Origin: Ignavibacteriaceae bacterium | GTDB lineage: Bacteria; Bacteroidota; Ignavibacteria; Ignavibacteriales; Ignavibacteriaceae | Assembly (NCBI GenBank): GCA_013360295.1 | Contig: JABWCL010000037.1 | Location: 1 to 61,342 of the forward strand | Direction: 5' to 3' | DNA: 61,342 bases | Shown: piece after piece, positions 214-43,871 of the stretch | How the letters are laid out: every line of letters starts with the position of its first letter | Position numbering within the stretch: position 1 is the first letter of the stretch | Made by a program: the position numbers and the translations under genes | Notes under the pieces: generated by a model | Database searches by the model: none | What the model was told of the DNA's origin: nothing | Seen by the model: the letters and a program-made list of their open reading frames with translations, nothing else

Positions 214-2586
214 TTACTTCATCAGAACCATTTTCTTTGTAATGGATTTGTTTCCGGCATCCATTTTGTAGAAGTAGATACCTGAAGCAACCTTAGCGCC
301 GTTGTTATCGTTTCCGAGCCATTCAACACTGTATGTGCCGGCATCGTAATCACGATTAACAAGTTCTTTCACTAATTTACCCATTGCATTGTAAACCGCG
401 ATCTTAACATTACTGTTTACAGGAACTGTAAACTTAATGCTGGTTGACGGGTTGAACGGGTTCGGATAGTTCTGGGCCAGTGAGAAATCAACTGGCATAG
501 AGTTAATGTTAACATTTACAACTTTCGAGAACTCTGAGGTTCCGTCAAAATCAACCTGTTTCAGCCTGTAGCTTACAGTGCCATTTAGCTGAACATTAAC
601 CAGGTTATCAGTATAAGTGTATTTGCTGACACCGGTGGTTGTACCTTTACCGTTAACAAAACCGATTTCTTTCCAGTTACCATTGATCTTTCTTTCAACT
701 GAGAAACCTTTATTATTGGTTTCTGAACCAGTTTCCCAGTTCAGGACGACTGTGTTATCGGATGTCCTTGCATTGAAAGCCATAAGCTCAACCGGAATAA
801 ATCCGTTGTTGATAGCTTTGATTGACTTGCTGAGCACATCAATTGTAAACTTGGTATTATGCATACCATAGCTTCCATCATAATGAACTAAGCGATAATT
901 GAAGTAGGCTTTTCTGTAATTCATAGAATCAGCTCCGATACCTACAATCATTGCCCAGTTGATCGAGTCCAATCCAATAGGAGGAAGCGCTATCCTGAGT
1001 AATCTTTCAAGGCCTTTAACTTCATCCTGAATTGGTTCAATATTGCCGTCTCTGTCATAGTCAGCGGCAGCTACGAAATCAGCAAAAGAGGTCTTCGGAC
1101 CGTGGCAGCTTTCGCAGGCTTTTGTGTGCTGGTAATCATTTTCGGCATTACGCAGCTTCATACTGTGTCCGCCGACTTTATCACGATTTACGGTACCGGT
1201 GTCAGTTGTTGCGTACATATGGCAGTCAACGCATCCGTCGGCGATAGCGTATTTATGTCCGCTGCTGAGGTAAGGGTTAGCGTCGAATACCGGAGCCGCA
1301 TTCTGTCCAAAGAGAATGTCAGCCTGGCCGCTGTAGTGAGGACCCCAGTTTGCATTCAGATTGTTATTAACATAGGTCACATTATTCTGACGTGCTTTAT
1401 GGCAGCTCATACAGGTTTGGCCGGTGCCGCCCATATTAGTATAGTTATATCCGTTAGCAAGTGTATCACCTGCAACCGGAGACTGGCGAAGCGAAGCATA
1501 GAACTGATTTCCGTGCGGATCGTGGCAGGTTGCGCAGGTAACAACAACATGATCGGCTACGGTCGGTGTAAGGGGTGTAGTCTGAGTTTCACCGTTGGTA
1601 TACATTACATAACCTTTACCTGAGTGGCAGCGCATACACTGCTGCAAATCGCCGGAGGGTAATCCGCGTGTAGCAAATCCGCTTGACCATATAGCAACTG
1701 AGTGCATCGAGTTTTCATACTGCGCGCCCTCGTTGTATCTCCAGGGAGCGTCGTGGCATTGACCGCAGGTTGCATCATCCAGTGTAACCTGGATTCTGGC
1801 TACGTTTCCGCCGGCGCCGTGTTCAGAACCGGTACCGTGGCACATTTCGCAGCCAATATTTGCGTGGTTAACAAGACCGGGTTTGTTGGTCTTTAATGAA
1901 TCCCATTTTGATGGATCTGGCGGTGCATACCATACCCAGCCTAGCTGAGCTGCTACATCATCAAAACCATTGTTATTTGCAACCAGGTTATGATCATAAC
2001 CGGTTGTATGGCACTTCATACAGCTGGTGCTGAAATGAGTGGAACCGGAAGTGATATCATTTTTAAACCTGGTAGCGTGGCCTGAAACTTTCCATTTATC
2101 AAAGATAGCTGTGAAAGCTGGCATACTGCCGTGGCAGGACATACACTGCGGAAATGCAGCAGCTACGCCTTCATAGTTGCCCACACCAACATAGCTTCCG
2201 GCGAAGAGTGACATTGTGGTGTCATCAGAACCGGCAGCAGTTGTAACAGTGAGTTTTACCTGGTATTCACCTTTTACGTCAGGTTTGAACATTGTCCAGG
2301 TTGGTTTGTTCGGGAAAGCTTCGAAAGCAGCAGCCGAACCTGATGGCCTGGAAACAAATTGCCAGGTAGCAGTCAATATCGGATCAGAATTCGCGATATT
2401 AAGAGGCGACAGGTATGAATAGGTAAGATTTGGAACAATCTTTAATCCTGCGGAAACTGAGTTTGTTGCGAGACCGTAAGAGGTCAGCTTTGCGCGTGAG
2501 ACTCCTTCGACTTTTATAACGGCTCTCTGAGCCAAAAGACTGAAGGGAAGTAAAAAAAGAAAAGCAATTAGTAATATTTTTTTCAT
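214..2586 (-). CDS. Secreted nine-haem c-type cytochrome with type IX secretion sorting domain
   Basis: The 790-residue protein starts with a clear signal peptide (residues 1-20, ending LLAQ). Nine CXXCH haem-binding motifs lie between about residue 148 and residue 490 (CMSCH, CMKCH, CEMCH, CGQCH, CMRCH, CATCH, CMSCH, CVDCH, CESCH). A fibronectin/Ig-like stretch follows, and the C-terminus is a type A T9SS sorting domain beginning at QNYPNPFNPST and ending ITKKMVLMK. The protein is expected to cross the outer membrane through the Por/T9SS machine and act as a surface or extracellular electron-transfer cytochrome. Similar spacing of CXXCH and extra His is seen in cytochrome c554/NrfB-like and OmcA-like proteins, but I cannot assign a substrate. 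It is monocistronic, with its own terminator. Confidence 0.9.
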   Translation of the reverse strand: MKKILLIAFLFLLPFSLLAQRAVIKVEGVSRAKLTSYGLATNSVSAGLKIVPNLTYSYLSPLNIANSDPILTATWQFVSRPSGSAAAFEAFPNKPTWTMFKPDVKGEYQVKLTVTTAAGSDDTTMSLFAGSYVGVGNYEGVAAAFPQCMSCHGSMPAFTAIFDKWKVSGHATRFKNDITSGSTHFSTSCMKCHTTGYDHNLVANNNGFDDVAAQLGWVWYAPPDPSKWDSLKTNKPGLVNHANIGCEMCHGTGSEHGAGGNVARIQVTLDDATCGQCHDAPWRYNEGAQYENSMHSVAIWSSGFATRGLPSGDLQQCMRCHSGKGYVMYTNGETQTTPLTPTVADHVVVTCATCHDPHGNQFYASLRQSPVAGDTLANGYNYTNMGGTGQTCMSCHKARQNNVTYVNNNLNANWGPHYSGQADILFGQNAAPVFDANPYLSSGHKYAIADGCVDCHMYATTDTGTVNRDKVGGHSMKLRNAENDYQHTKACESCHGPKTSFADFVAAADYDRDGNIEPIQDEVKGLERLLRIALPPIGLDSINWAMIVGIGADSMNYRKAYFNYRLVHYDGSYGMHNTKFTIDVLSKSIKAINNGFIPVELMAFNARTSDNTVVLNWETGSETNNKGFSVERKINGNWKEIGFVNGKGTTTGVSKYTYTDNLVNVQLNGTVSYRLKQVDFDGTSEFSKVVNVNINSMPVDFSLAQNYPNPFNPSTSIKFTVPVNSNVKIAVYNAMGKLVKELVNRDYDAGTYSVEWLGNDNNGAKVASGIYFYKMDAGNKSITKKMVLMK

Positions 2587-2951
2587 ATAAGCCTATTTGG
2601 TTAATTGTTATAGACTCTTTGCAAAAAGCAATATGTGTGCCAATAATCAATACTTCATTTTTCTCAAATATTGCGGAATATCAATCTACTCACCTTTCAT
2701 TTTATCATTAATGAGATGAAATTTTTTCAAATCTTAGAATATTTGATATTTCGAATATTGCTAATTGTCAACTAATAGCTCCCGCAATCGTAATTTTATT
2801 CAATAATCAAACTATGGCTAAAGAAAGGTCCGAATTAGAAATTCTTAAAATCAGGAACCAAGTGTTGAATAATTAAACACGAGTAAATAGCCCTACGATT
2901 CGTATATTTACTCTCTTATTTTACACGAAATCTAAAACGTTATACTACAAA
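2587..2951. other. Intergenic region between the cytochrome gene and the YgjP-like gene
   Basis: This AT-rich stretch separates two divergent genes and must hold both promoters. I see no reliable open frame, RNA fold or repeat in it. The short open frame at 2399-2650 mostly overlaps the cytochrome gene in another frame and is not real. Confidence 0.5.
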
Positions 2952-3635
2952 TTGCCAGTCGTTAAAACAACCTCTCTTACCCTTGGGGAGAGAGTCATAA
3001 AATGTATTTATAAAAGTAACCGGAAAATCAGGAGAGTCTCCCTGAAGATTACCCAGTTTGGTGTTGTCGAATTGCTAATCCCGCCGCGTTACTCAATCGC
3101 AACGGCTGATAATTTCCTGCAGGCAAACCTCTCTTTAATCCGGAAACATATTGATAAAATTATTTCGCCCGTCACGGAAAGATCCCTGTTTGGGCAAGCA
3201 ATCCGTATTGTTACTATCCCCGGTAAGTTTAAGAGCCGGTCGAGGTATAGGTTCTCCGAGAATGTCCTGACCGTTGAAGTTCATCCATCGGTAGATCTTG
3301 ATGAGGAGTACCTCTATAAGCAGCTCCTGAAAATAAAAGCGAAAGAGGTAATACTGCCGCTGGCCGAAGAAATGGCGAAAAGATACGGGTTCTTGCCAAA
3401 ACGCATTCAACTGGGGTACGGGACTACACAGTGGGGTAGCTGTACAACTACCGGAGTCGTAAGACTCAATTCTCTCCTGGCCTCCCTGCCTTTAGAGATT
3501 ATTGAATACGTTATCATCCACGAGTTCTGCCATCTTAAATATATGAATCATTCGAATGAATTCTGGAATGAAGTGGAAAAATATATTCCTCATTACAAAA
3601 CTTTAAGAAAAAAACTTAAAGGGAAAGCCGCCTGA
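2952..3635 (+). CDS. YgjP/DUF45-family zinc metallopeptidase
   Basis: This is a 227-residue member of the YgjP-like metallopeptidase family (WLM/DUF45). The signature WGSC (residues 161-164) is followed by the zinc motif HEFCH at 190-194 and a further His at 200. The N-terminal segment KSNRKIRRVSLKI fits the family's basic start. The start chosen is TTG at 2952, because no in-frame ATG exists before residue 141, well inside the conserved part. Family members are cytoplasmic and often sit beside restriction enzymes, but here the neighbour is a peroxiredoxin. The physiological substrate is unknown. Confidence 0.85.
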   Translation: MPVVKTTSLTLGERVIKCIYKSNRKIRRVSLKITQFGVVELLIPPRYSIATADNFLQANLSLIRKHIDKIISPVTERSLFGQAIRIVTIPGKFKSRSRYRFSENVLTVEVHPSVDLDEEYLYKQLLKIKAKEVILPLAEEMAKRYGFLPKRIQLGYGTTQWGSCTTTGVVRLNSLLASLPLEIIEYVIIHEFCHLKYMNHSNEFWNEVEKYIPHYKTLRKKLKGKAA

Positions 3636-3692
3636 TACCACACTTTTATTCAAATTTGTTAAATTTGTGGACTAAATTTTTTCGAGTATTTT

Positions 3693-7630: not shown

Positions 7631-7957
7631 TTATGCGGTAAACTTAAGTCCTATTATCCCTATTATTATTAATCCGATGAACATTAAACGGGGTAAATTA
7701 GCAGGTTCACTAAAAAGGTATATCCCCAGTATTGCAGTCCCAGCTGCTCCTACCCCCGTCCAGACAGCATAGGCAGTGCCCACAGGAAGAAATTTGAGGC
7801 AATATGCCAGAAGTCCCATACTGATCACCATACTTATCACCGTCAGGACTGAAGGCAAAGGTTTGGAAAAACCCTGGGAGTATTTTAGCCCAATTGCCCA
7901 GGCAATTTCAAACAGGCCAGCCAACAGTAAAATTAACCAGTGAAAAACATTTGTCAT
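7631..7957 (-). CDS. gdx: Small multidrug resistance-family transporter, SugE/Gdx (guanidinium exporter) type
   Basis: The 108-residue protein has four membrane helices and the conserved membrane glutamate in GLFEIAWAIGLKYS. The following segment, TAYAVWTGVGAAGTA, is characteristic of the SMR family. The GLFEIAW context points to the SugE/Gdx subgroup, which exports guanidinium in exchange for protons, rather than to EmrE. It lies 31 bases after argD on the same strand and is probably co-transcribed. No guanidine riboswitch fits in that short gap. Confidence 0.85.
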   Translation of the reverse strand: MTNVFHWLILLLAGLFEIAWAIGLKYSQGFSKPLPSVLTVISMVISMGLLAYCLKFLPVGTAYAVWTGVGAAGTAILGIYLFSEPANLPRLMFIGLIIIGIIGLKFTA

Positions 7958-7988
7958 AACTTAACCGGATTTATTAAACTATTCTGAA

Positions 7989-9158
7989 TTAAAACTCTTT
8001 GAGGACAGCATCAAGGTTTTCGGCATAAAAGTCGAAGTGTTCTTTCTCAGCGATAAACGGCGGCAGGATTCTCAGCACCGTATCACCTGCAACAGTGGAC
8101 AATATTTTTCGTTCCATCAGTTTTTTCAGGACATCTTTCGGGTTTATCGCCTTCACAAACTCGACTCCGATCATCAGCCCTTTTCCTCTAATCTCAGCGA
8201 TGTATTCTGAATTGAGATTCTTCAGCAAGTCCATAAGGTAGATTCCGTCGTTACTTATTTTTGCGAGCATTTCCGGCGTAAGCAGATCCACTACAGCTAA
8301 CGCGGAAGCAAGCGCAACAGGATTACCACCGAAGGTCGTTCCGTGGCTGCCGGGTGTTATAACCTCTCCGACCGGCTTATTACAAAAGGTGGCACCGAGA
8401 GGGAGTCCGTTTGCTATTCCCTTCGCGCTTGAGAGAATGTCCGGCACCACACCGGCCCATTGATGAGCATATAGTTTCCCGGTACGCCCCATTCCACATT
8501 GTATCTCGTCAAAGATCAGAAGAATATTATGTTCATCGCATAACTCCCTTAACCCATTCAGATACTCATCTGTAGCGACTGCAACTCCCCCTTCCCCCTG
8601 TATGGGTTCAATAATGATAGCGGCAGTATTCTCATTTACAGCTGCTTTCATTGCGGCGAGGTCATTAAAAGGCACATAATTAAATCCCTCCAGCAGCGGA
8701 TAAAAACCCTTCCAAAGTTTTTCCTGGCCAGAAGCAGAGACAGCGCCCATCGTTCTGCCGTGAAAACTTTTCTGTGTGGAGATGATGCCATATCGCCCAT
8801 CTCCCCACTTCCGGGTAAATTTTATGGCAGCCTCATTAGCCTCCGTCCCGGAGTTGGAAAAGAAAACAAAATCGTGACCTGTCTGAGAGGCCAGCTTAAA
8901 TGCAAGTTCCTCCTGGAGATGGGAATAAAAAAGATTTGACAGATGCCACAATTTATCTATCTGTTCTTTCACCGCGGCTTTAATAACCGGATGATTATGC
9001 CCGAAGGAGGTAACGGCAATGCCGCAAAGGAAGTCAAGATATTTGTTGCCGTCCCTGTCGTAAAGAAACACACCTTCGCCGTGAGAGAAATCTATCTCAT
9101 AACGGGCATAATTTTTAAGAAGTCGTGAGGTTGTTGCCGCGGAGTTTATATTATTCAA
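7989..9158 (-). CDS. argD: Acetylornithine/succinylornithine-type aminotransferase
   Basis: This is a 389-residue class III PLP-dependent aminotransferase. Motifs seen are SNSGTEANEAAIKF (phosphate binding), IIEPIQGEGG, FDEIQCGMGRTGK (PLP Asp) and SSAKGIANGLPLGA, with the Schiff-base lysine near residue 245. Length and motifs fit ArgD (arginine and possibly lysine synthesis). No other arg gene is nearby, so related omega-aminotransferases cannot be excluded. It is followed by gdx in the same direction. Confidence 0.85.
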   Translation of the reverse strand: MNNINSAATTSRLLKNYARYEIDFSHGEGVFLYDRDGNKYLDFLCGIAVTSFGHNHPVIKAAVKEQIDKLWHLSNLFYSHLQEELAFKLASQTGHDFVFFSNSGTEANEAAIKFTRKWGDGRYGIISTQKSFHGRTMGAVSASGQEKLWKGFYPLLEGFNYVPFNDLAAMKAAVNENTAAIIIEPIQGEGGVAVATDEYLNGLRELCDEHNILLIFDEIQCGMGRTGKLYAHQWAGVVPDILSSAKGIANGLPLGATFCNKPVGEVITPGSHGTTFGGNPVALASALAVVDLLTPEMLAKISNDGIYLMDLLKNLNSEYIAEIRGKGLMIGVEFVKAINPKDVLKKLMERKILSTVAGDTVLRILPPFIAEKEHFDFYAENLDAVLKEF

Positions 9159-9196
9159 TTTCTATCCTGAAAAATAATTGGAATTCAAAATGTTGG

Positions 9197-9814
9197 TTAA
9201 TCCCTTAAAATACCCCTGACAGTAAGTTCATTTAGAAGGGGTGCATATCCCGTGTACTGTATCGCGTCCCACCCGCGGGACTTTGCCCCTTCAGCATATT
9301 CCGCTATGTCATCAATAAAGATGTGAGTTTCCGGTAATTCACCAGTATATGAGGTTACGGCTTCATAGATCTCTTTCTGCGGTTTTACATATTTCAATTC
9401 GTGTGAGAGGAAAAGTTTTTCAAAATTTGCCAGGAACGGATACTGCTCCCAGCCATATTTTTTATGAATGGAATTAGTGTTCGAGAGGAGCATCAGCCGG
9501 TAATTCATTTTCAGTTTCGGCAGTAATGCCGCGGTATCTTCGTTAACAGTAAATATCTCAGAGTATAAACTGCAGAATGTTTCTCCGTCAACAAGATTTT
9601 TTAAGGCGTTCAGGTGCTTTTCTATAAAGACTGATTCAGTAATTTCACCAGCCTCAAAAGCCCTGTGGAGTGGATAATTTTCTTTTAGAAAAATACGGTA
9701 ATGGTCTCCAAGCCCCTTCTCAATTTTCTCAAGTTTTGAGAATGCGATTTCATAATTAAAGGGAATGAGGACATTCCCAAGATCAAAAACAACAACTTTG
9801 TATTTATTCGGCAT
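9197..9814 (-). CDS. HAD-superfamily hydrolase (HAD-IA, YihX-like)
   Basis: The 205-residue protein opens with motif I VVFDLGNVL (nucleophile Asp at residue 10-11, second Asp replaced by Gly as in the DLGNVL subgroup). Motif II is LMLLSNTNSIHK, motif III lysine is in YVKPQKEIYE, and motif IV is FIDDIAEYAEGA. It is probably a small-molecule phosphatase. It lies upstream of argD, with 38 bases between them, and may share its transcript. Confidence 0.85.
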   Translation of the reverse strand: MPNKYKVVVFDLGNVLIPFNYEIAFSKLEKIEKGLGDHYRIFLKENYPLHRAFEAGEITESVFIEKHLNALKNLVDGETFCSLYSEIFTVNEDTAALLPKLKMNYRLMLLSNTNSIHKKYGWEQYPFLANFEKLFLSHELKYVKPQKEIYEAVTSYTGELPETHIFIDDIAEYAEGAKSRGWDAIQYTGYAPLLNELTVRGILRD

Positions 9815-9866
9815 CTTTATTTATCAGGGTCTTTTATGGATAATGATTAACGTGCGGCATAAAATA

Positions 9867-9897
9867 TTTTCCTCCGCCGCGGCGCGGCGGAGGAAAA
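9867..9897. terminator. Terminator after the M16 peptidase pair
   Basis: A perfect 14-bp stem (9867-9880 with 9884-9897) has a 3-nt loop and a GC-rich core (CCTCCGCCGC), with T- and A-runs outside. It closes the minus-strand M16 operon and insulates it from the HAD gene. Confidence 0.88.
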
Positions 9898-9905
9898 ATA
9901 ATTTT

Positions 9906-11963
9906 TTATTTAAAGAGATCGTCTCCCAGACCTGTGTTAATTTCGATATTCGAAACGGTCATTTCAATATTCATTCCGACTACTGATTGTACTAATTTGT
10001 AGGGGTATTTCATCCCATTCACTTCACGGTAGTCGGAGAAGTTTGTCGTTTGTGTAAACGTTCCCTGTGGCGTGGAAAGAGTACGCTGTTCACGGAGTTT
10101 TAACCCGGATTCCTTCTCATAGTAATGATGAAATTTACCGCCTGAGGGCAGGACAAATTCAATTTTATACGCGTCTTTGTCATCAATTTTTTCTACTCCT
10201 GTGAGAGTTGCTTTTATACCAAGTTCATCAAGTTTAGTAATCGCGAGCATATCAGCCTCAAATGCCATCTGTTCGAGGTTCTCCCCTTCCAGAACTTCTT
10301 CACCCATAGGTGATTTATTAACACCATTCTTACCATCGAAAAGCATTACCTGCTCCATTCCGCCAACAGAAATTCGCTGCAGCATTTTATTCGGAGCTTT
10401 CTGTAAAAGAACAGCCGTAACATCGAATCCCTGGACTGAGGCGCTCATCGTGGTCTTCCTGTCCTTAACGTTCATAAGTTTTTCTTTGCCGCCGATCGAT
10501 TCGATATACTTCGAGATAACCGAAGCAGCGCTGACTCCCTCAGGAACAGCTTTCGCGTTTGGGTCTACCGGATTAGCAAAATCATCATAATACTCGATCT
10601 TCAGAGACGAGAACTTTTTTACTTTCGACGCTATATCTTCAGCTTTTCCGACAAGTATAATATAGCTCTTTTCGGGAAGGACATATTTATTAGCCGCATC
10701 ACGTATATCATCAGCAGTAAGTGAATTGACCTTTACCAGGTAATTGGAATAAAAATCCCTGGGCAAATTATATTTTGCAGTATTAACCGCAAAACTTGCG
10801 ACCGTCTGAGGGCTTTCCATTGAAATGGCGAAACTGCCTGTAATGTAATTCTTGGCTTTTTGTAATTCATTTTCACCAACCGGTTCAGTCCGGATCCGCT
10901 TCATCTCATATAGGAATTCAGTAACCGCGCTGTCAGTCACTTCATTACGAACATCAGCCGAGGCCGCGAAATAACCGGTAAGCTGATTGGGCGCCAGTTG
11001 TGAGTAAGCACCGTAAGTGAATCCGCGTTTTTCGCGCAGGTTCTCGAATAGTCTGAAAGCACCGCCGCCGAGGATTGTATTCATAACGCGCGCATTGATT
11101 ACATCGGGACTGCTCAGAGAAATCTCGACGGGGTGACCGATATTGATTGAGGTCTGAACCGCGTTATCCCTGTCGACAATCGCCACTTTGGTAAGAAGGG
11201 GAGCCTTAGGCTGCTTATAGGTATGTTTGGGAACCTCTCCCTTTTTCCAGTCTCCGAAATACCTTTGGGCGGCTTTTTTCGCTTCATCGAGAGTAATATC
11301 ACCGACTATCGACAAATAGGAAATATTAGGCTTAAAGTAAGTCTGGTAATATTTTTCACAATCCTGGCGAGTGATCTTTTTCACTGAAGCTTCTGTTTCA
11401 AACTCAGCATAGGGATGCCCCTCTCCGTAGAATAATTTTCTTCTTACTCTTTCGGCGATTTCATCCGGCTCATCCTTGGAAGAAATCAGATTTGAGAGGA
11501 TCTGTTTCCGCGCCTTCTCAACTTCTGCGTCTCTGAACTCCGCGTTGATCACTACATCCGACATAAGTTCAAGAAGTTTGTTCATGTGCTTCTTTAATGA
11601 AGAGGAAAATACGCTTGAAGACGAAGTTCCGAGTGTTCCGCCGATCTTATCCACTTCCTGGTCAATCTGCTCCTTGGTACGGGTTTTTGTTCCGGTACGG
11701 AGAAGCCTGCCCGTCATACCTACATACCCGGCCAGGTCTTTTTCAAGTACAGGATCAGAATCAATGATCAGGTTGAATGCTACCGTAGGCAACTTTGAAT
11801 TTGTAACGACAAATACTTTTAGTCCGTTATCAAGAGTGAATGATTCATAGTCCGCGATTCTAATTTGCGGGGCCGGCCCCGGTTTTGGAGGGGCGCTTCT
11901 GTCAACCTGTCCGAAGGCGGTAAAACTTATTAATAATAAAAGTGCTAATATTCTGTTTTTCAT
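9906..11963 (-). CDS. M16-family peptidase homologue lacking zinc motif, with C-terminal LolA-like extension
   Basis: The 685-residue exported protein has a signal peptide at residues 1-18 (ending FTAFG). Two M16 half-domains fill about residues 35-455. The position of the HXXEH zinc motif is YVGMTGRLLRTGT (residues 80-92), so this subunit is predicted inactive. After residue 480 comes a domain of roughly 200 residues (IESIGGKEKLMNV..., then MLFDGKNGVN..., YREVNGMKYPY) that resembles outer-membrane lipoprotein-sorting/LolA-like folds. It lies 18 bases after the active M16 gene. By analogy with bacterial M16B pairs, the two likely form a periplasmic heterodimer. Confidence 0.88.
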   Translation of the reverse strand: MKNRILALLLLISFTAFGQVDRSAPPKPGPAPQIRIADYESFTLDNGLKVFVVTNSKLPTVAFNLIIDSDPVLEKDLAGYVGMTGRLLRTGTKTRTKEQIDQEVDKIGGTLGTSSSSVFSSSLKKHMNKLLELMSDVVINAEFRDAEVEKARKQILSNLISSKDEPDEIAERVRRKLFYGEGHPYAEFETEASVKKITRQDCEKYYQTYFKPNISYLSIVGDITLDEAKKAAQRYFGDWKKGEVPKHTYKQPKAPLLTKVAIVDRDNAVQTSINIGHPVEISLSSPDVINARVMNTILGGGAFRLFENLREKRGFTYGAYSQLAPNQLTGYFAASADVRNEVTDSAVTEFLYEMKRIRTEPVGENELQKAKNYITGSFAISMESPQTVASFAVNTAKYNLPRDFYSNYLVKVNSLTADDIRDAANKYVLPEKSYIILVGKAEDIASKVKKFSSLKIEYYDDFANPVDPNAKAVPEGVSAASVISKYIESIGGKEKLMNVKDRKTTMSASVQGFDVTAVLLQKAPNKMLQRISVGGMEQVMLFDGKNGVNKSPMGEEVLEGENLEQMAFEADMLAITKLDELGIKATLTGVEKIDDKDAYKIEFVLPSGGKFHHYYEKESGLKLREQRTLSTPQGTFTQTTNFSDYREVNGMKYPYKLVQSVVGMNIEMTVSNIEINTGLGDDLFK

Positions 11964-34190: not shown

Positions 34191-34235
34191 TTTTTGCCCA
34201 TTGACCATTGTTCTGCCTCTCCCCCCTTCCCTCTG

Positions 34236-34391
34236 AAAAAAACTTTGATCCTTGATCATTGATAATTGATCATTGTCCTGCCCCTCTTCTCTGTTCCCTG
34301 CCCGCTGTTCCTCAAAAAAACTTTGATCATTGATCATTGTTAATTGATCATTGCCTTCCCCCTGTTCCCTGATCTCTGTTCCCTGTTTCCC
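34236..34391. repeat. Two tandem copies of a 78-bp unit
   Basis: Copy one is 34236-34313 and copy two 34314-34391. Each begins with A7 then CTTTGATC, continues with several TGATCATTG/AATTGATC palindromic words, and ends with CTGTTCCCTG-like pyrimidine-rich words. Because 78 is a multiple of three, the repeat creates an open minus-strand frame (34182-34400) with a 26-residue repeated peptide. Its GTG start overlaps the DnaE stop as GTGA. I regard that frame as a by-product of the repeat, not as a gene. Confidence 0.85.
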
Positions 34392-34396
34392 GTCTT

Positions 34397-36100
34397 TCAC
34401 CCCGCGTACGCCTGCACCATCGCTTCCCTTCCGAGCGAATTAACCAGCGAAAACTCCTCTTCAAATATTTTTTCCTCATCTCCGAAGTAGTTGTGCTCCA
34501 CACTATCATTCATCTTCACCGCGTTCATATCCGCGCTGCTTACCAGTTCCAGTTTATTCACTATCAGGTTATCGCCGTTTTCCATATCCACTTTCCCCTC
34601 TACCAGGTAAGGACCCATTGACATCGTCTCCTCCGCGTACTTATTATACGCCCCGGGAAAGAGCACTGCCTCGAAAGTCCCCGTAAGATCCTCGAGCGAG
34701 AGGAATTTCATAATATCCCCCTTTTTTGTTTTTATCCTCTTGGCGGTCATATACCACCCTATCATCTTTATCGTGCGCCCGTTATAGCGGCGCATATCGG
34801 AGGCGGGAACGATTCCGGGACGCGAAAGATACTCCGGAAAAAACTCAAGCGGATGGCGCGTTGCCCCGTAGCCAAAGAGCTCCATTTCCGTTATCAGTTT
34901 TTCCGCGGGACTGTAATCAAGATCAGTAACCACCTTTCTCTCCAGTTCGAAAGAGTCCGCGGCGAACAGGTCATACTGCATACCATCAAGCAGGCGGCGG
35001 TTATGGAGATAAACATCAAGAAGCCGCATAAGCGTGGGGCGGGTCTGCTTAAAGCAATCCATTGCCCCTGCCTTTATCAGCAGCCCGGTTTCCTGCGGGC
35101 CGGGATGCAGCCTTACGATAAAATCCGCCAGCGATACATACCGGCCGTTCCTTTCCCTTTCCGCGATTATCCTTTCAACGTAACCCGTGCCCAGCCCTTT
35201 GATCGCCATAAATCCGATCCTGATCGTCTTCCCCTCGCAGGAGTACTCATACTCGCTCTTATTCACGCACGGCAGGGCTACCTTCAGCCCGAGCCGCTTA
35301 CTTTCTTGTATATACACGGCAGGCGAATAATACCCGCCCCGGTTGCTCAGCACCGACGACATAAACTCCGCCGGGTGATGCGCCTTAAGGTACGCCACCT
35401 GGTACGAAAGAAGGGCGTAGCAGGCGCTGTGCGATTTGCAAAACGCATAACCCGCGAACGAACTTACCTGCCGCCACAACTCCGCAACCACCTCCGGCTT
35501 AAGCCCCCGCTTCAGCCCGACTTCACGGAACCTCCCCTGCAGTTTTGACATCGCGTCGTGCGAACGCATCTTACCGCTCATAGCACGGCGCAGCAGGTCG
35601 GCTTCTTCCAGGCTCAGCCCTATTATATGATGCGCCACACGAAGCACATCCTCCTGGTATATCATCAGTCCGTAAGTGGAGCCGAGGTACTTTTTCATTT
35701 CCGGCACAAGGTACTTCCGCCGCGAGGGGTCTTTATGGCGAAGAATGAACTCCTGCATCATCCCGCTTTCGGCCACACCGGGACGAATGATCGAACTCGC
35801 CGCCGTCAGCATCTCGAACGTATCCACCGAAAGCCGTCGCAGAAGCGAGCGCATACCGGGCGACTCGATATAGAAGCACCCTATCGTCCTCCCTTCTTTT
35901 ATCAGGCTGACCGTTGGCGCGTCGTTAAAGAGCATCTCATAGTCGTAGATATCAAAGTCCACGCCGCTCCCCTTACGAGGTATCGGTTCGTAAATCTTCG
36001 TCAGGCTCAGGTCCTTCCCCCTGTCATTAGGGAGGACATAAGTCGTGAGGTCTATGTAGGGTGAGTTACTCTCCGGCTCTTTCATAAATTTAGTGAACAT
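34397..36100 (-). CDS. C-terminal half of a DnaE-type DNA polymerase III alpha subunit (second paralogue, error-prone type)
   Basis: The 567-residue open frame aligns by eye with the fingers, tandem HhH and OB regions of the second DnaE of Bacteroidota: DAPTVSLIKEGRTIGCFYIE at about 54-73, then AASSIIRPGV, YGLMIYQEDVLRVAHH, EADLLRRAMSGKM and SFAGYAFCKSHSACYALLSY, with an OB-fold at about 420-500. The N-terminal PHP domain and the palm with its three catalytic aspartates (PDxDxDF and the later Asp) are missing, about 450 residues. The frame is otherwise uninterrupted. The ATG at 36100 lies inside a palindromic operator; the Met at 36085 is an alternative start. It is either a decayed gene or a catalytically empty accessory protein. 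No imuB/dinB partner is in the window. Confidence 0.82.
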   Translation of the reverse strand: MFTKFMKEPESNSPYIDLTTYVLPNDRGKDLSLTKIYEPIPRKGSGVDFDIYDYEMLFNDAPTVSLIKEGRTIGCFYIESPGMRSLLRRLSVDTFEMLTAASSIIRPGVAESGMMQEFILRHKDPSRRKYLVPEMKKYLGSTYGLMIYQEDVLRVAHHIIGLSLEEADLLRRAMSGKMRSHDAMSKLQGRFREVGLKRGLKPEVVAELWRQVSSFAGYAFCKSHSACYALLSYQVAYLKAHHPAEFMSSVLSNRGGYYSPAVYIQESKRLGLKVALPCVNKSEYEYSCEGKTIRIGFMAIKGLGTGYVERIIAERERNGRYVSLADFIVRLHPGPQETGLLIKAGAMDCFKQTRPTLMRLLDVYLHNRRLLDGMQYDLFAADSFELERKVVTDLDYSPAEKLITEMELFGYGATRHPLEFFPEYLSRPGIVPASDMRRYNGRTIKMIGWYMTAKRIKTKKGDIMKFLSLEDLTGTFEAVLFPGAYNKYAEETMSMGPYLVEGKVDMENGDNLIVNKLELVSSADMNAVKMNDSVEHNYFGDEEKIFEEEFSLVNSLGREAMVQAYAG

Positions 36101-36110
36101 TTGTTCACTA
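36091..36110. promoter_or_regulatory. Perfect palindromic operator of LexA-like form over the start of the half-DnaE gene
   Basis: TAGTGAACA at 36091-36099 and TGTTCACTA at 36102-36110 form a perfect 9-bp inverted repeat with a 2-bp centre. The core GAAC-N4-GTTC equals the SOS box form of Gram-positive LexA. The minus-strand start codon lies inside it. Confidence 0.75.
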
Positions 36111-36138
36111 TATTAATAAAAGAAAATGAGAAAGTCAA
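36110..36138 (-). promoter_or_regulatory. Sigma70-like promoter of the half-DnaE gene
   Basis: On the minus strand, TTGACT (36133-36138) is followed after 17 bases by TAATAT (36110-36115). The expected transcription start, near 36103, falls within the palindrome, and the ATG follows by only a few bases, so the mRNA would be nearly leaderless. A repressor bound to the palindrome would block it. Confidence 0.6.
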
Positions 36139-36215: not shown

Positions 36216-36461
36216 TCAATAAAAGCAGAAGCTGATTTCCAGCGGATCATCTGCTTTCAGAATTTCAGAATAATGGCTCCAACTCAATTGTTCAGACAGT
36301 GTCTGGATTTTTGGAAATTTGAAATAAAGCTGCCTCATCTGAAAGATATTTGTCCGGCTAAAACCTTTGCCAAATTCAAATGTTAAATTTATTAAAAGGC
36401 GATATAAAAGTTCAGAACCATAATCAGATTTTGCTTTTCTATTAAGTTCATTGGCAAAATG
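36216..36461 (-). pseudogene. Fragment of a DUF1016/YhcG-family (PDDEXK nuclease) gene
   Basis: Reading the minus strand from 36461 gives about 81 residues with the hallmark text of the DUF1016 N-terminal domain: ANELNRKAKSDYG, EFGKGFSRTNIFQMRQLYF, and LSEQLSWSHYSEILKADDPL, followed by an early stop at 36216. The 5' part of the gene is replaced by the repeat that starts at 36464, and the catalytic C-terminal domain is absent. It is therefore a relic of a mobile restriction/defence-associated gene. Confidence 0.75.
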
Positions 36462-36463
36462 AA

Positions 36464-36544
36464 AAATATGTCGTTCCTACGGAACTTTAGAGGTGATAGG
36501 TGAAGCACTTGTTACTAATATTCCGTTCCTACGGAACTCCGGAG
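36464..36544. repeat. REP-like repeat, type A, copy 1
   Basis: An 81-bp unit begins AAATATGTCGTTCCTACGGA. It contains two GTTCC-TAC-GGAAC hairpin cores joined by a GTTACTAA segment and ends ACTCCGGAG. It abuts the DUF1016 fragment. Confidence 0.8.
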
Positions 36545-36659
36545 AAACACATTAGTGATTTGATTGCGAATGCGAAATGAAGGGGAAATCGGTTTTCAAT
36601 AATGTACTGGATCAAGTAAACAGGATCTGTGTTGATTAATACCTGAGGAGATAAGTTGG

Positions 36660-36734
36660 CTTAACTGCGTAGCAGTGGCATTTTGGTAACTAACGAACAA
36701 CTCCATATAAAGAGTTCCGTAGGAATGACATATT
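36660..36734. repeat. REP-like repeat, type B (inverted), copy 1
   Basis: A 75-bp unit begins CTTAACTGCGTAGCAGTGGC and ends with AGTTCCGTAGGAA and CATATT. It is 72/75 identical to copy 2. Its reverse complement shares the ATATGYCGTTCCTACGGAACT word with type A, so A and B are related units in opposite orientation. Confidence 0.82.
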
Positions 36735-36783
36735 CGTTTTTCCGCACGAAAGTATTTTTTCCATAACTCAAACTACATTCGGG

Positions 36784-36863
36784 AAATATGTCGTTCCTAC
36801 GGAACTTTGGACGAAAGAGGTGGATTCTCGTTACTAACATTCCGTTCCGACGGAACTCCGGAG
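36784..36863. repeat. REP-like repeat, type A, copy 2
   Basis: An 80-bp second copy of the type A unit, with the same two GTTCC/GGAAC cores (the second has GAC in its loop) and a diverged middle. It lies between the two B copies, giving the order A-B-A-B. Confidence 0.8.
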
Positions 36864-36892
36864 TTATGTGTCTATGATGTTGTTGCTTTAAT

Positions 36893-36967
36893 CTTAACTG
36901 CGTAGCAGTGGCATTTTGGTAACTAACGGACAACTCCATATAAAGAGTTCCGTAGGAACGGCATATT
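36893..36967. repeat. REP-like repeat, type B (inverted), copy 2
   Basis: A 75-bp unit differing from copy 1 at three positions. It is the last repeat before the promoter of the AAA_14 ATPase. Short open frames across these repeats (minus strand 36661-36975 and 36894-37175) share the peptide LVTKMPLLRS and are products of the repeat, not genes. Confidence 0.82.
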
Positions 36968-41219: not shown

Positions 41220-42521
41220 TTAGTCGAGCATTATTCTCAGCAGGGATGAAGCTTCATCATCTTCATCATCCTCAATGGAATTCTTCGGAGGATTCTGACG
41301 GCTCTTCCTGTAGGTGTCTTCCATCGGAGAATTGATAAAACCCTCAAAGTTAAGTGTCGGCTGATTTTCTTCCGCTGCCCTTATCGGCTTTACCTTACGT
41401 GTCGCGGATTTACGCAGAATTGCAGGGAATTCAATGTCTGTGTTTTCCGTCTCAGGTTCTGATTCCTCAATCAGATTTTTCGAAAACCCTGAGTGAGCGT
41501 TCCCGAATCCATTATTACCTATCTCCTGTTCAACCGGCTTAGGGGCAAAAGCAGCCTCACGGTCAAATCCGGTGGCAATTACCGTATAGGATACAAAGTC
41601 ATTCATCTCATCCTTTCTTACACAGCCGAAGATAACGTGAGCCTCATCGCCCGCGGCTTCAAAGATAACATTGTTCCCTTCATATACTTCGTGCATCGTG
41701 AGATTGCTCGAACCGGTGATATTAACCAGGATGCTCCTCGCGCCTTTTATGCTGACGCCTTCGAGCAGCGGATTTGATATCGCCTTCTGTGCCGCTTCGA
41801 TTGACCTGTTCTCGCCGCTTGCCGTGCCTGTACCCATAAGCGCAACACCGCTCTTATCCATAACTGACTTGACATCAGCGAAATCAACATTTATCATACC
41901 CTTAATGAGGATAATCTCAGCGATGCCCCTCGTGGCTTCATAAAGGATTTCGTTTGGTTTATCAAACGCCTGGAACGCACTCGTGTTTTTGTCAAGTATT
42001 CCGAGCAGTCTTTCATTTGGTATTACAATTAAACTGTCAACCGAATGCCTGAGTTCCTGGAGTCCGCGTTCGGCGTATTTCATCTTCTGATGCCCTTCCC
42101 ATTTGAAAGGCTTTGTAACTATCGCTACGGTAAGGATTCCCATTTCCCTTGCAAGGCTTGCAACTACGGGAGCTCCGCCTGTACCGGTACCGCCGCCCAT
42201 ACCCGCGGTGATAAACACCATATCGCAGCCGCGAAGGACGTCAACGATCTTATCCTTGTCGTCTTCAACTGCTTTTTTACCAATTGTGGGATTCGCGCCT
42301 GCTCCAAGTCCGCGGGTTGTTTTTACTCCGACCGCGATCTTGTGTGATGCCAGGCAGGCTTCGAGAGCCTGGGCATCTGTGTTTACTCCGACGTAATCAA
42401 CATTTGAAAGGCCTCTCTGGATCATATAGTCGATCGCGTTACAGCCGCCTCCGCCTACTCCGATAACTTTCAATGTTGCACTCATCTTCAATTCAGGATC
42501 AACCTGTATGAACTTTGCCAT
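41220..42521 (-). CDS. ftsZ: Cell division protein FtsZ
   Basis: The 433-residue tubulin homologue has the GTP-binding signature GGGTGTG (residues 109-115), GVGGGGCNA near the start, and the NVDFADVKSVM synergy loop. After the globular part (about 330) comes an acidic, variable linker. The tail ends ASSLLRIMLD rather than the common DIPxFLR-type peptide. It is the last gene of the dcw cluster, 15 bases after ftsA. It forms the division ring. Confidence 0.98.
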   Translation of the reverse strand: MAKFIQVDPELKMSATLKVIGVGGGGCNAIDYMIQRGLSNVDYVGVNTDAQALEACLASHKIAVGVKTTRGLGAGANPTIGKKAVEDDKDKIVDVLRGCDMVFITAGMGGGTGTGGAPVVASLAREMGILTVAIVTKPFKWEGHQKMKYAERGLQELRHSVDSLIVIPNERLLGILDKNTSAFQAFDKPNEILYEATRGIAEIILIKGMINVDFADVKSVMDKSGVALMGTGTASGENRSIEAAQKAISNPLLEGVSIKGARSILVNITGSSNLTMHEVYEGNNVIFEAAGDEAHVIFGCVRKDEMNDFVSYTVIATGFDREAAFAPKPVEQEIGNNGFGNAHSGFSKNLIEESEPETENTDIEFPAILRKSATRKVKPIRAAEENQPTLNFEGFINSPMEDTYRKSRQNPPKNSIEDDEDDEASSLLRIMLD

Positions 42522-42536
42522 GGATACCTCCGGGGA

Positions 42537-43871
42537 TTATTTTAGATTGTTAATAAATTCTTTAAGATCGTTCCAGCGTCCTTTGAACCAGTTACCGGCT
42601 AATTCTTTATTCCCGGAACGTTCTTTTATTTTTTTCTCTTTTTTAGGTTTAGCTTCCGCGTGCTCAGCTTTTTTAACTTCAGGCTCCTCAATTATCAGTG
42701 TTCCTGAAAGCGTACTTCCTGAGGACGGATCGCCTTTCAGCAGTCCAAGTACTGTGGAGAACTCCGGTTTCTGAAGTTCATCTTTTCCTACCGTCAGTTT
42801 ATCAGAAGGGAGCCCGAGCTGCGCCGACATACCGAATACTTCTTCCGCAAGGTCGGCTACTCCTCTGAGCATTGCTCCGCCTCCCGTGATTATGATACCA
42901 GCCTTAATTTTCTTTTTCATCTTTGTGGCTTTCAGATCATTATCAATCATTGTGAAAAGCTCGCGCATTCTGGCTCCGATTATTTGCGTCAGCAAACTTA
43001 TCGGGATCTGCGAATTACCGTAAGCTCCAATACCTTCAATCATAATCATTTCATCCTGTTTTATGATCGCTTTTTCGTGAGCGCAGCCGTATTCCATCTT
43101 AAGTTTTTCGGCATTCTCGGTAACCACCCCAAGCGTTTCGCGGATATCGTTTGTCACCATATTGCCCGCGATCCCGAAGACCCGTGAATACCTGATTGAT
43201 TTTCTGTGAAAGAGGGCTACGTCTGTAGTTCCGCCGCCGATATCAAGCAAAAGCACTCCGATGTCCCGTTCATCGTCATCAAGAACAGCCTGCGCGGAGG
43301 CCAGTGGCTGAAGGATAAGAGATTTAACTTTATATCCGGCACGTTCAACCGCTTTCCTGATATTATTGACCGGATTGATTGAGGCCAGCACCACGTGATT
43401 CACGGCTCCAAGTTTATACGCGGAGACTCCTATCGGGTCTTCAACAGTGATCTCATCGTCAATTATGAATTCTTCCTGGATGACGTGCAGTATCTCCTGG
43501 TCAGCAGCTATTTTTATGGCCCTCACTTCCGCCTCAAGGCGCGCCACATCGCCGGGTTCAACTTCTTTATTCAGGTTCTGAATGAAAACGTGGTTACGGT
43601 GAATGATACTTTTTATATGTTCGCCGGCTATACCTACGTAAAAACTTTTCAGTTCAACGGGAATGCTCGCGTTCTCAGACGCGATCTGCACTGCCTGACG
43701 AATCGACTCCGAAGTCTTTGTAATATTTGTAACCATCCCCTTATGCATACCCTGCGACTTCACTATTCCGTATCCAAGGATATTCTGTTCGCCGTTATCG
43801 TATATTTCAGCTATCACTGCTCTGACTTTGGTCGTGCCAAGGTCTATGGCTCCGATTATCTTTCTGCTCAT
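42537..43871 (-). CDS. ftsA: Cell division protein FtsA
   Basis: The 444-residue actin-like protein starts with phosphate-1 loop GAIDLGTTKV (residues 7-16). It has the 1C subdomain (about 85-165) and LLLDIGGGTTDVALF as phosphate-2. It ends with an amphipathic helix (NWFKGRWNDLKEFINNL) that anchors FtsZ to the membrane. Its start overlaps the ftsQ stop by four bases. Confidence 0.97.
   Translation of the reverse strand: MSRKIIGAIDLGTTKVRAVIAEIYDNGEQNILGYGIVKSQGMHKGMVTNITKTSESIRQAVQIASENASIPVELKSFYVGIAGEHIKSIIHRNHVFIQNLNKEVEPGDVARLEAEVRAIKIAADQEILHVIQEEFIIDDEITVEDPIGVSAYKLGAVNHVVLASINPVNNIRKAVERAGYKVKSLILQPLASAQAVLDDDERDIGVLLLDIGGGTTDVALFHRKSIRYSRVFGIAGNMVTNDIRETLGVVTENAEKLKMEYGCAHEKAIIKQDEMIMIEGIGAYGNSQIPISLLTQIIGARMRELFTMIDNDLKATKMKKKIKAGIIITGGGAMLRGVADLAEEVFGMSAQLGLPSDKLTVGKDELQKPEFSTVLGLLKGDPSSGSTLSGTLIIEEPEVKKAEHAEAKPKKEKKIKERSGNKELAGNWFKGRWNDLKEFINNLK

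Follow-up and report, generated by a model that had tools for sequence, protein, structure and literature searches.

A DnaE2-type polymerase probably produced as two polypeptides in Ignavibacteriales

The reverse strand of the 61,342-nucleotide stretch of Ignavibacteriaceae DNA analyzed here (hereinafter the window) carries, at positions 34,397–36,100, a stop-free frame of 567 codons counted from the ATG at 36,100, which comprises fingers, HhH, clamp-binding-like and OB regions and which, judging from sequence comparison, represents the C-terminal half (hereinafter C-half) of a DnaE2-type polymerase split in two. Pfam searches (E up to 0.01) identified the DNA_pol3_finger domain at residues 56–194 (35,519–35,935, minus strand) and HHH_6 at residues 271–356 (35,033–35,290, minus strand), and matched neither PHP nor the palm family PF07733; the OB-fold domain at residues 447–519 (34,544–34,762, minus strand) scored 26.6 bits, just under the Pfam cut-off of 27, and is also placed by the structure model. 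The frame and its domain content thus agree with the first-pass annotation, which had described fingers, HhH and OB parts without PHP or palm, the OB match being sub-threshold. These are C-family domains with a C-family fold, not the Y-family fold of ImuB-like inactive polymerases. In the alignment of 40 C-half sequences, the CFYIESPGMR segment of the fingers is invariant, as are L378 and F379 of a QYDLF motif (34,964–34,978, minus strand) in which the Q is variable; an xDLF pattern was detected in 35 of 54 C-halves. QxxLF is the sliding-clamp-binding consensus, and a comparable role is predicted for this motif. The first 42 or so residues (35,975–36,100, minus strand) form an extension without counterpart in fused DnaE2, mostly of low confidence in the structure model, in which Y-x-L-P and P-x-(I/L)-P-R patterns, discerned by eye, are loosely conserved. 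At the other end, the C-terminal tau-binding domain is absent: the protein stops 48 residues past the OB match with a mostly low-confidence tail. The flanks are repetitive, with two imperfect 77-nt tandem copies directly past the stop codon (34,233–34,387) and, in the intergenic region 5′ of the gene (36,456–36,967), several CGTTCCTACGGAACT palindromes and a 75-nt direct repeat.

A LexA-type operator, the 16-bp perfect palindrome GTGAACATTTGTTCAC (36,093–36,108), was recognized at the start of the C-half by pattern scan and consensus comparison, and nowhere else in the 4.46-Mb genome is GTGNACANNTGTNCAC matched without a mismatch (the next-best match of this first operator pattern lies at C48:49485). 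Genome-wide regulon scans yielded 59 matches to GTGNACANNTGTNCAC at up to two mismatches versus 46 in the control, and 14 versus 7, an excess too small for a target list. The operator is abutted by a promoter-like site, TTGACT-17-TAATAT (36,110–36,138, minus strand), recognized solely by consensus match; it agrees at 9 of 12 positions, and sites of such quality number 5 in the region versus 2.6 in shuffles. A promoter-like site and an operator directly at the start, as originally proposed, are therefore present, with the correction that the annotated ATG at 36,100 sits within the operator (GTGAACAA-ATG-TTCAC). Because the operators of many relatives begin approximately 20–40 bases 5′ of the called ATG, the true start is probably Met6, at the ATG at 36,085, giving 562 codons.

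The missing 5′ half, for which a search of the genome had been suggested, was located on another contig of the same genome (G000:C89:6342-7943, locus L035). This gene (hereinafter N-half), a 537-aa frame with a 533-aa protein, contains the PHP domain, the palm and three catalytic aspartates, and has purD (named by eye) before it and a gene for a Y-family polymerase (PF00817; hereinafter PolY) after it. The palm family PF07733 has two matches in this genome, full-length DnaE1 (contig C70) and the N-half, and the C-half protein likewise has two (E up to 1), itself and DnaE1; another partner for the C-half in its own genome was considered and rejected, given that the searches returned DnaE1 and the N-half only. 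When aligned with E. coli alpha (5FKU), the N-half, which ends 18 residues past KIDLL, the motif of the third catalytic aspartate, reaches residue 575, and the C-half starts at residue 591; by this alignment, the cut falls in the linker that joins palm and fingers. The N-half model (pLDDT 87, pTM 0.84) has DnaE chains as its top 14 PDB matches, with TM 0.81–0.88 over the query, and the C-half model, of moderate confidence (pLDDT 77, pTM 0.74), matches the same proteins, best of all M. tuberculosis Pol III alpha (7PU7, TM 0.63); the residues below 50 confidence (1–16, 21–33, 522–550 and 563–567) indicate disordered ends.

In the alignment of 42 N-halves, D357, D359 and D513 are invariant; by alignment to the E. 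coli residues, we take these to be the catalytic aspartates. The PHP active site is altered, with TDTDG in place of TDHGN (Thermus) and TDHTN (E. coli) at the single position inspected. Conceivably, pairing of the two halves could yield a complex that synthesizes no DNA and has a purely regulatory role, swapping polymerases at the clamp, a reading compatible with the altered PHP site and with the fact that polymerase activity is predicted from sequence; it is nevertheless highly improbable, as invariance of all three palm aspartates in 42 sequences would be unexpected for a non-catalytic complex. Covalent rejoining of the halves, as in the cyanobacterial DnaE with split inteins, which is a known route for a split DnaE (PMC3919608, available text), has a negligible probability here, because the N-half ends 18 residues past KIDLL and no intein family was matched in either half (E up to 0.01). 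Given this lack of inteins, the two halves would instead associate non-covalently into one polymerase. In G062, G064, G066, G071, G073 and other genomes, the N-half has an extended C-terminal tail in which a (I/V)Fx(I/L)-like pattern, noted by eye, recurs; this could be a docking element for the extension of the C-half.

With presence of a half defined as a best E below 1e-80 (a limit also applied to PolY), 65 of 97 genomes of the order have a C-half-specific match and 65 an N-half-specific match: 61 encode both halves, four the C-half only (G003, G055, G077, G084), four the N-half only (G024, G031, G052, G058) and 28 neither (Fisher p 5.5e-16 for co-occurrence, with genomes taken as independent). 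Among the 68 genomes that are at least 95% complete, the corresponding counts are 42, 3, 2 and 21; five of the eight one-half genomes reach this completeness, and their single halves may reflect assembly gaps or true loss. A finger piece with 49% identity on a short contig of G060 was scored as C-negative. None of the matches listed in the 97 genomes is a frame of fused DnaE2 length, and the long frames among them, with 29–35% identity, are presumed to be DnaE1. Of 395 genomes sampled from the phylum, 75 match the C-half at 1e-90; 28 belong to the order, and the 47 outside it have frames of 871–1056 aa. C-half records in the named collection are mostly labeled Ignavibacteriales, Ignavibacteria, Ignavibacteriaceae or Melioribacteraceae, and some just Bacteroidetes or bacterium; the N-half, C-half and PolY genes are all present in one MAG, labeled Melioribacter roseus (L190).

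Where dN/dS is computable, it indicates purifying selection on both halves. The NG86 value for the C-half against a genome of the same genus (G000 vs G001) is 0.07, at a near-saturated dS of 1.43, and 15 of 18 comparisons, 13 of these 15 between halves, gave 0.025–0.091; these values are rough, dS being incomputable in the other three comparisons and above 1 in several. Some C-half copies may be decaying: in G064 (C11:112290-113699) the C-half lies in a 480-aa frame in which some 35 codons replace about 125 query residues, and in L160 (positions 1970–3670, one MAG) it is broken by a stop after about 390 codons. That the frame in the window is itself a decay product, arising by recent deletion or as a pseudogene with a fortuitously placed operator, could be argued from its half length and from these damaged copies, but this option is vanishingly improbable against a stand-alone frame in nearly all of the 65 genomes with a C-half, the low dN/dS and the single clade described below. 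On the same three grounds we reject recent deletion, including the fusion of an operator to a 3′ half suggested in the first-pass annotation, as well as a pseudogene and an assembly join. The three outcomes named there beforehand as refuting did not appear: the matches listed for the 97 genomes include no full-length orthologue, dN/dS against the same-genus genome is 0.07, and an assembly join near 36.1 kb is unsupported, with the C-half found in 65 of the 97 genomes, including five single-contig genomes (G002, G007, G019, G026 and G078).

The other suggestion made at the outset, a retained, non-catalytic damage-response protein, stands in part: the frame is retained and under selection, but a lone non-catalytic protein is disfavored because this genome also encodes the catalytic half, on another contig, and the two halves co-occur. 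In its more general form, this explanation holds that the C-half alone is an SOS-induced accessory, either a clamp or ssDNA adaptor or a competitor of DnaE1, with the N-half performing a separate function. A promoter-like site and operator of its own, the clamp-like motif, the OB fold, the frequent lack of linkage and the four genomes with the C-half only are all compatible with such a role; we consider it unlikely all the same, in view of the invariance of both the palm aspartates in the N-half and the finger residues in the C-half, the complementary ends, the presence of both halves in 61 of 69 carriers, and the tandem pairs.

Phylogenetic analysis places the split pairs together. In a 76-row tree of joined N- and C-sequences, the 51 pairs form one clade with SH-aLRT 100 (each from a genome whose fetched loci contain both halves as complete frames; the 844-aa L251 fell to the length cut). 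In a quick tree with 16 of these 51 pairs, the split clade falls inside the DnaE2 branch, which includes the imuABC-linked DnaE2A and the DnaE2 of Bacteroidota, with SH-aLRT 100 and apart from seven presumed-DnaE1 rows; the nearest clade there is Bacteroidota DnaE2 (SH-aLRT 89), a relationship unresolved in the 76-row tree. For both halves, DnaE1-type models of NCBIfam outscore the error-prone polymerase model PRK05672, and the predicted membership in DnaE2 rests on the quick tree, in which the split pairs grouped with DnaE2, bearing out the original assignment to the second, mutagenesis-type DnaE. The separate N-half and C-half trees of the 51 genomes agree (Mantel r 0.68, reached in 0 of 2000 permutations), sharing 29 of 48 bipartitions with one conflict between strongly supported ones; shared species history contributes in part to this agreement.

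Outside the order, 13 of 18 loci of the named collection (L210–L227) encode the N and C regions in a single frame exceeding 900 aa; of the remainder, one is a single frame cut by the contig end (L222), three have the C region alone at a contig end, and one is split (L215). Twelve homologues fetched from Bacteroidota are likewise unsplit, with frames 844–1039 aa long. In 18 of the 19 fused proteins in which both motifs were found (in six more they were not), 45–48 residues separate KxDxL from xES, the exception being L213 with 77; in the split pairs listed, 16–47 residues follow KIDLL in the N-half and 56–113 precede CFYIES in the C-half. These spacings are longer than in fused DnaE2, and therefore the ends have gained residues, chiefly at the start of the C-half. 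The split locus L215 belongs to the Candidatus Sumerlaeia MAG SKW40, in which tandem DnaE2 frames (7883–9916 and 9926–11692), cut at the same linker, lie 9 bases apart with two in-frame TGA stops between them. Because this pair lies outside the Ignavibacteriales clade in the quick tree, its split is apparently independent.

The halves occur in tandem N→C, in tandem C→N, divergently, convergently or at separate loci. In the tandem N→C pairs of G034 and G025, the C-half begins 2 and 4 bases, respectively, past the last sense codon of the N-half, and therefore stop and start overlap or touch. In the single-contig genomes G002, G007, G019 and G026, the halves are at least 0.47 Mb apart. Thirty-five pairs were scored as separate, including G018 and G081, which are in fact linked, and G057, which may be; for G032, G064 and G072, the arrangement table shows one half owing to the loci fetched. 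Among the fetched loci (56 N-halves and 54 C-halves, some with short flanks, and with gene names assigned by eye), purD is immediately 5′ of the N-half in 21 genomes, ftsZ is one or two genes 5′ of the C-half in 17, and a yajQ-like gene is 3′ of it in 17. In the window, matches to ftsZ (41,223–42,521) and ftsA (42,693–43,871) lie 5′ of the C-half, separated from it by other genes. Compact lexA2-DUF72-PolY-N-C cassettes are found in G025, G034 and G049, with variants elsewhere.

PolY accompanies the complete pair in 58 of 61 genomes and is also encoded in 11 genomes that do not have the two halves together. The PolY that adjoins the N-half in the genome under study (P0004) retains the SIDE motif, which we take to mark an active Y-family polymerase. 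It corresponds to the only IMS-family gene in this genome, which, having no second Y-family gene, probably has no ImuB. By eye, the tails of 23 PolY proteins contain a QxxLF-like motif and a stretch resembling the RecA N-terminus; the tail of P0004, REKLFDAIGRIRLKHGYDAINIG, likewise resembles the start of the RecA of the same genome, MKILEDTILAIEKNYGKGAIMKLG.

With respect to regulation across the order, the first-type consensus GTGAACAWWTGTTCAC, derived from C-half sites and controlled with mononucleotide shuffles and N-halves, was found at up to four mismatches between −110 and +60 of the start in 46 of 54 C-halves (1.85 expected), compared with 4 of 56 N-halves (1.4 expected near the start) and 10 of 23 PolY genes (0.6 expected). 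Five of these ten PolY boxes are shared with a divergent C-half, four fall in the conserved coding start, and one is of another kind. A scan for GAAC-N4-GTTC gave 5 exact and 9 one-mismatch hits among the 54 C-halves, 0 and 3 among the 56 N-halves, and 0 and 7 among the 23 PolY genes, with 11 exact hits in 2660 random windows. By sequence match, the operator type of the C-half is shared with a lexA gene, lexA1 (contig C82), which has two first-type boxes, with three mismatches each, immediately before its ATG; no box at up to one core mismatch was found at the recA locus. The operator of a second gene, lexA2, is of another type and strongly conserved, reading TACCATACAAATGTATGGTA in all ten loci examined, the own genome included (L148, L096, L109, L130, L121, L070, L136, L145, L174 and L198); lexA2 is usually followed by a DUF72 gene.

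Among the eight C-halves without a first-type box, five have a lexA2-type operator upstream, at distances of 83 (G009), 53 (G057), 1770 (G049), 4673 (G034) and 4728 (G025) bases; that of G019 has a five-mismatch first-type box with the core intact, and those of G015 and G054 have neither operator type upstream. Counting both operator types, 51 of 54 C-halves have a LexA-type operator at their start or farther upstream. As for the N-halves, divergent ones share the box of the C-half, and 7 of 56 are preceded by a lexA2-type operator within 5 kb, including G066 and G068, where the N-half belongs to a lexA2 cassette away from the C-half. In the 35 pairs scored as separate, a first-type box (up to four mismatches) is near the start of 31 C-halves and one N-half, and five N-halves have one (up to three mismatches) within 4 kb. 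For the N-half of the genome under study, the best-matching first-type element in the 4 kb before it differs at five positions, and no lexA2-type operator is present at up to five mismatches in the window or in the 16-kb N-half locus. Thus, to the extent that operator matches report control, that of the C-half is near-constant and that of the N-half varies, and no operator is seen at most unlinked N-halves, including that of the own genome, although short upstream flanks at some loci make not all of these absences firm. Control of the split polymerase appears to be shared, among species, by two LexA-type repressors, each with its own operator.

The existence of both genes, their complementarity at one point of DnaE, their co-occurrence, the purifying selection on them and the LexA-type operator at the C-half are established. 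From these observations, we conclude with considerable confidence that Ignavibacteriales make a DnaE2-type polymerase, by analogy error-prone, as two polypeptides, and that the frame in the window is its C-terminal half. The split pair is best read as a two-polypeptide DnaE2 of the DnaE2B-PolY-RecA kind, which would work with the neighboring Y-family polymerase and RecA in translesion synthesis. Similarly, the best reading of the operator data is that SOS control of this enzyme rests mainly on the C-half: because the C-half bears an operator and none is seen at the purD-linked N-half, induction of the C-half would switch the enzyme on in genomes like the one analyzed here. A further proposition, to which we assign somewhat less than an even chance, is that of a two-key polymerase, in which the N-half is produced constitutively with a purine-synthesis gene and is inert until its active site is completed by the LexA-controlled C-half, often made from a locus behind ftsZ. 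If so, the mutagenic enzyme would be conditional, its activity being set by the level of one subunit, and each half could evolve onto a different operon and a different LexA. More generally, if the two-polypeptide reading is correct, a C-family fold that a bacterial order keeps stably divided in the palm–fingers linker, with its parts under different control, can assemble from two proteins; this would give engineers a natural split site and open the question of how bacteria restrain mutagenic polymerases to testing.

Apart from the intein-joined DnaE of cyanobacteria, which is replicative, we know of no C-family polymerase that is not a single chain. Among the papers searched, no report of a two-gene DnaE2 was recovered. 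The survey in PMC3919608, as far as its available text goes, removed fragments without an intact active site, a step by which the C-half would be missed, and tabulates one Ignavibacteria genome with DnaE1 and DnaE2. Available portions of other reports describe DUF72 near PolB2 genes (PMC11791011) and other SOS motifs of Bacteroidetes, GGA-N5-TCC and CTAA-N5-TTAG (PMC8565304). The system most similar to the split pair is the DnaE2B-PolY-RecA module described in Bacteroidetes (PMC12926913, available text, where "split" refers to ImuB and to the DnaE1/DnaE3 division, not to DnaE2): it is the nearest clade in one tree (SH-aLRT 89), and the Ignavibacteriales pair likewise has a Y-family partner, predicted to be active, the tail of which may, by eye, carry clamp-like and RecA-NT-like stretches. 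Unlike Bacteroidota DnaE2, which are single frames of about 840–1056 aa, the Ignavibacteriales enzyme consists of two polypeptides, often unlinked and regulated differently. The gene order of the compact lexA2-DUF72-PolY-N-C cassettes recurs on the Desulfosarcina ovata plasmid Do28_1 as lexA-DUF72-PolY-DnaE, where the third gene, annotated as hypothetical, matches PolY at 27% and the polymerase is one 1033-aa chain, in contrast to the split one of Ignavibacteriales. The ImuA-ImuB-DnaE2 (imuABC) mutasome is comparable in combining DnaE2 with a Y-family partner and in its SOS linkage; its DnaE2, however, is a single chain of the DnaE2A branch, and ImuB is described as catalytically dead (PMC6511836, available text), whereas the Y-family partner here keeps the SIDE motif. 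The DnaE2 pair of Candidatus Sumerlaeia SKW40 (L215) is cut at the same linker, but is known in tandem from one MAG outside the Ignavibacteriales clade. Finally, as in the cyanobacterial DnaE split by an intein (PMC3919608, available text), the gene is in two pieces; unlike that case, the polymerase is a DnaE2 and the two pieces carry no intein.
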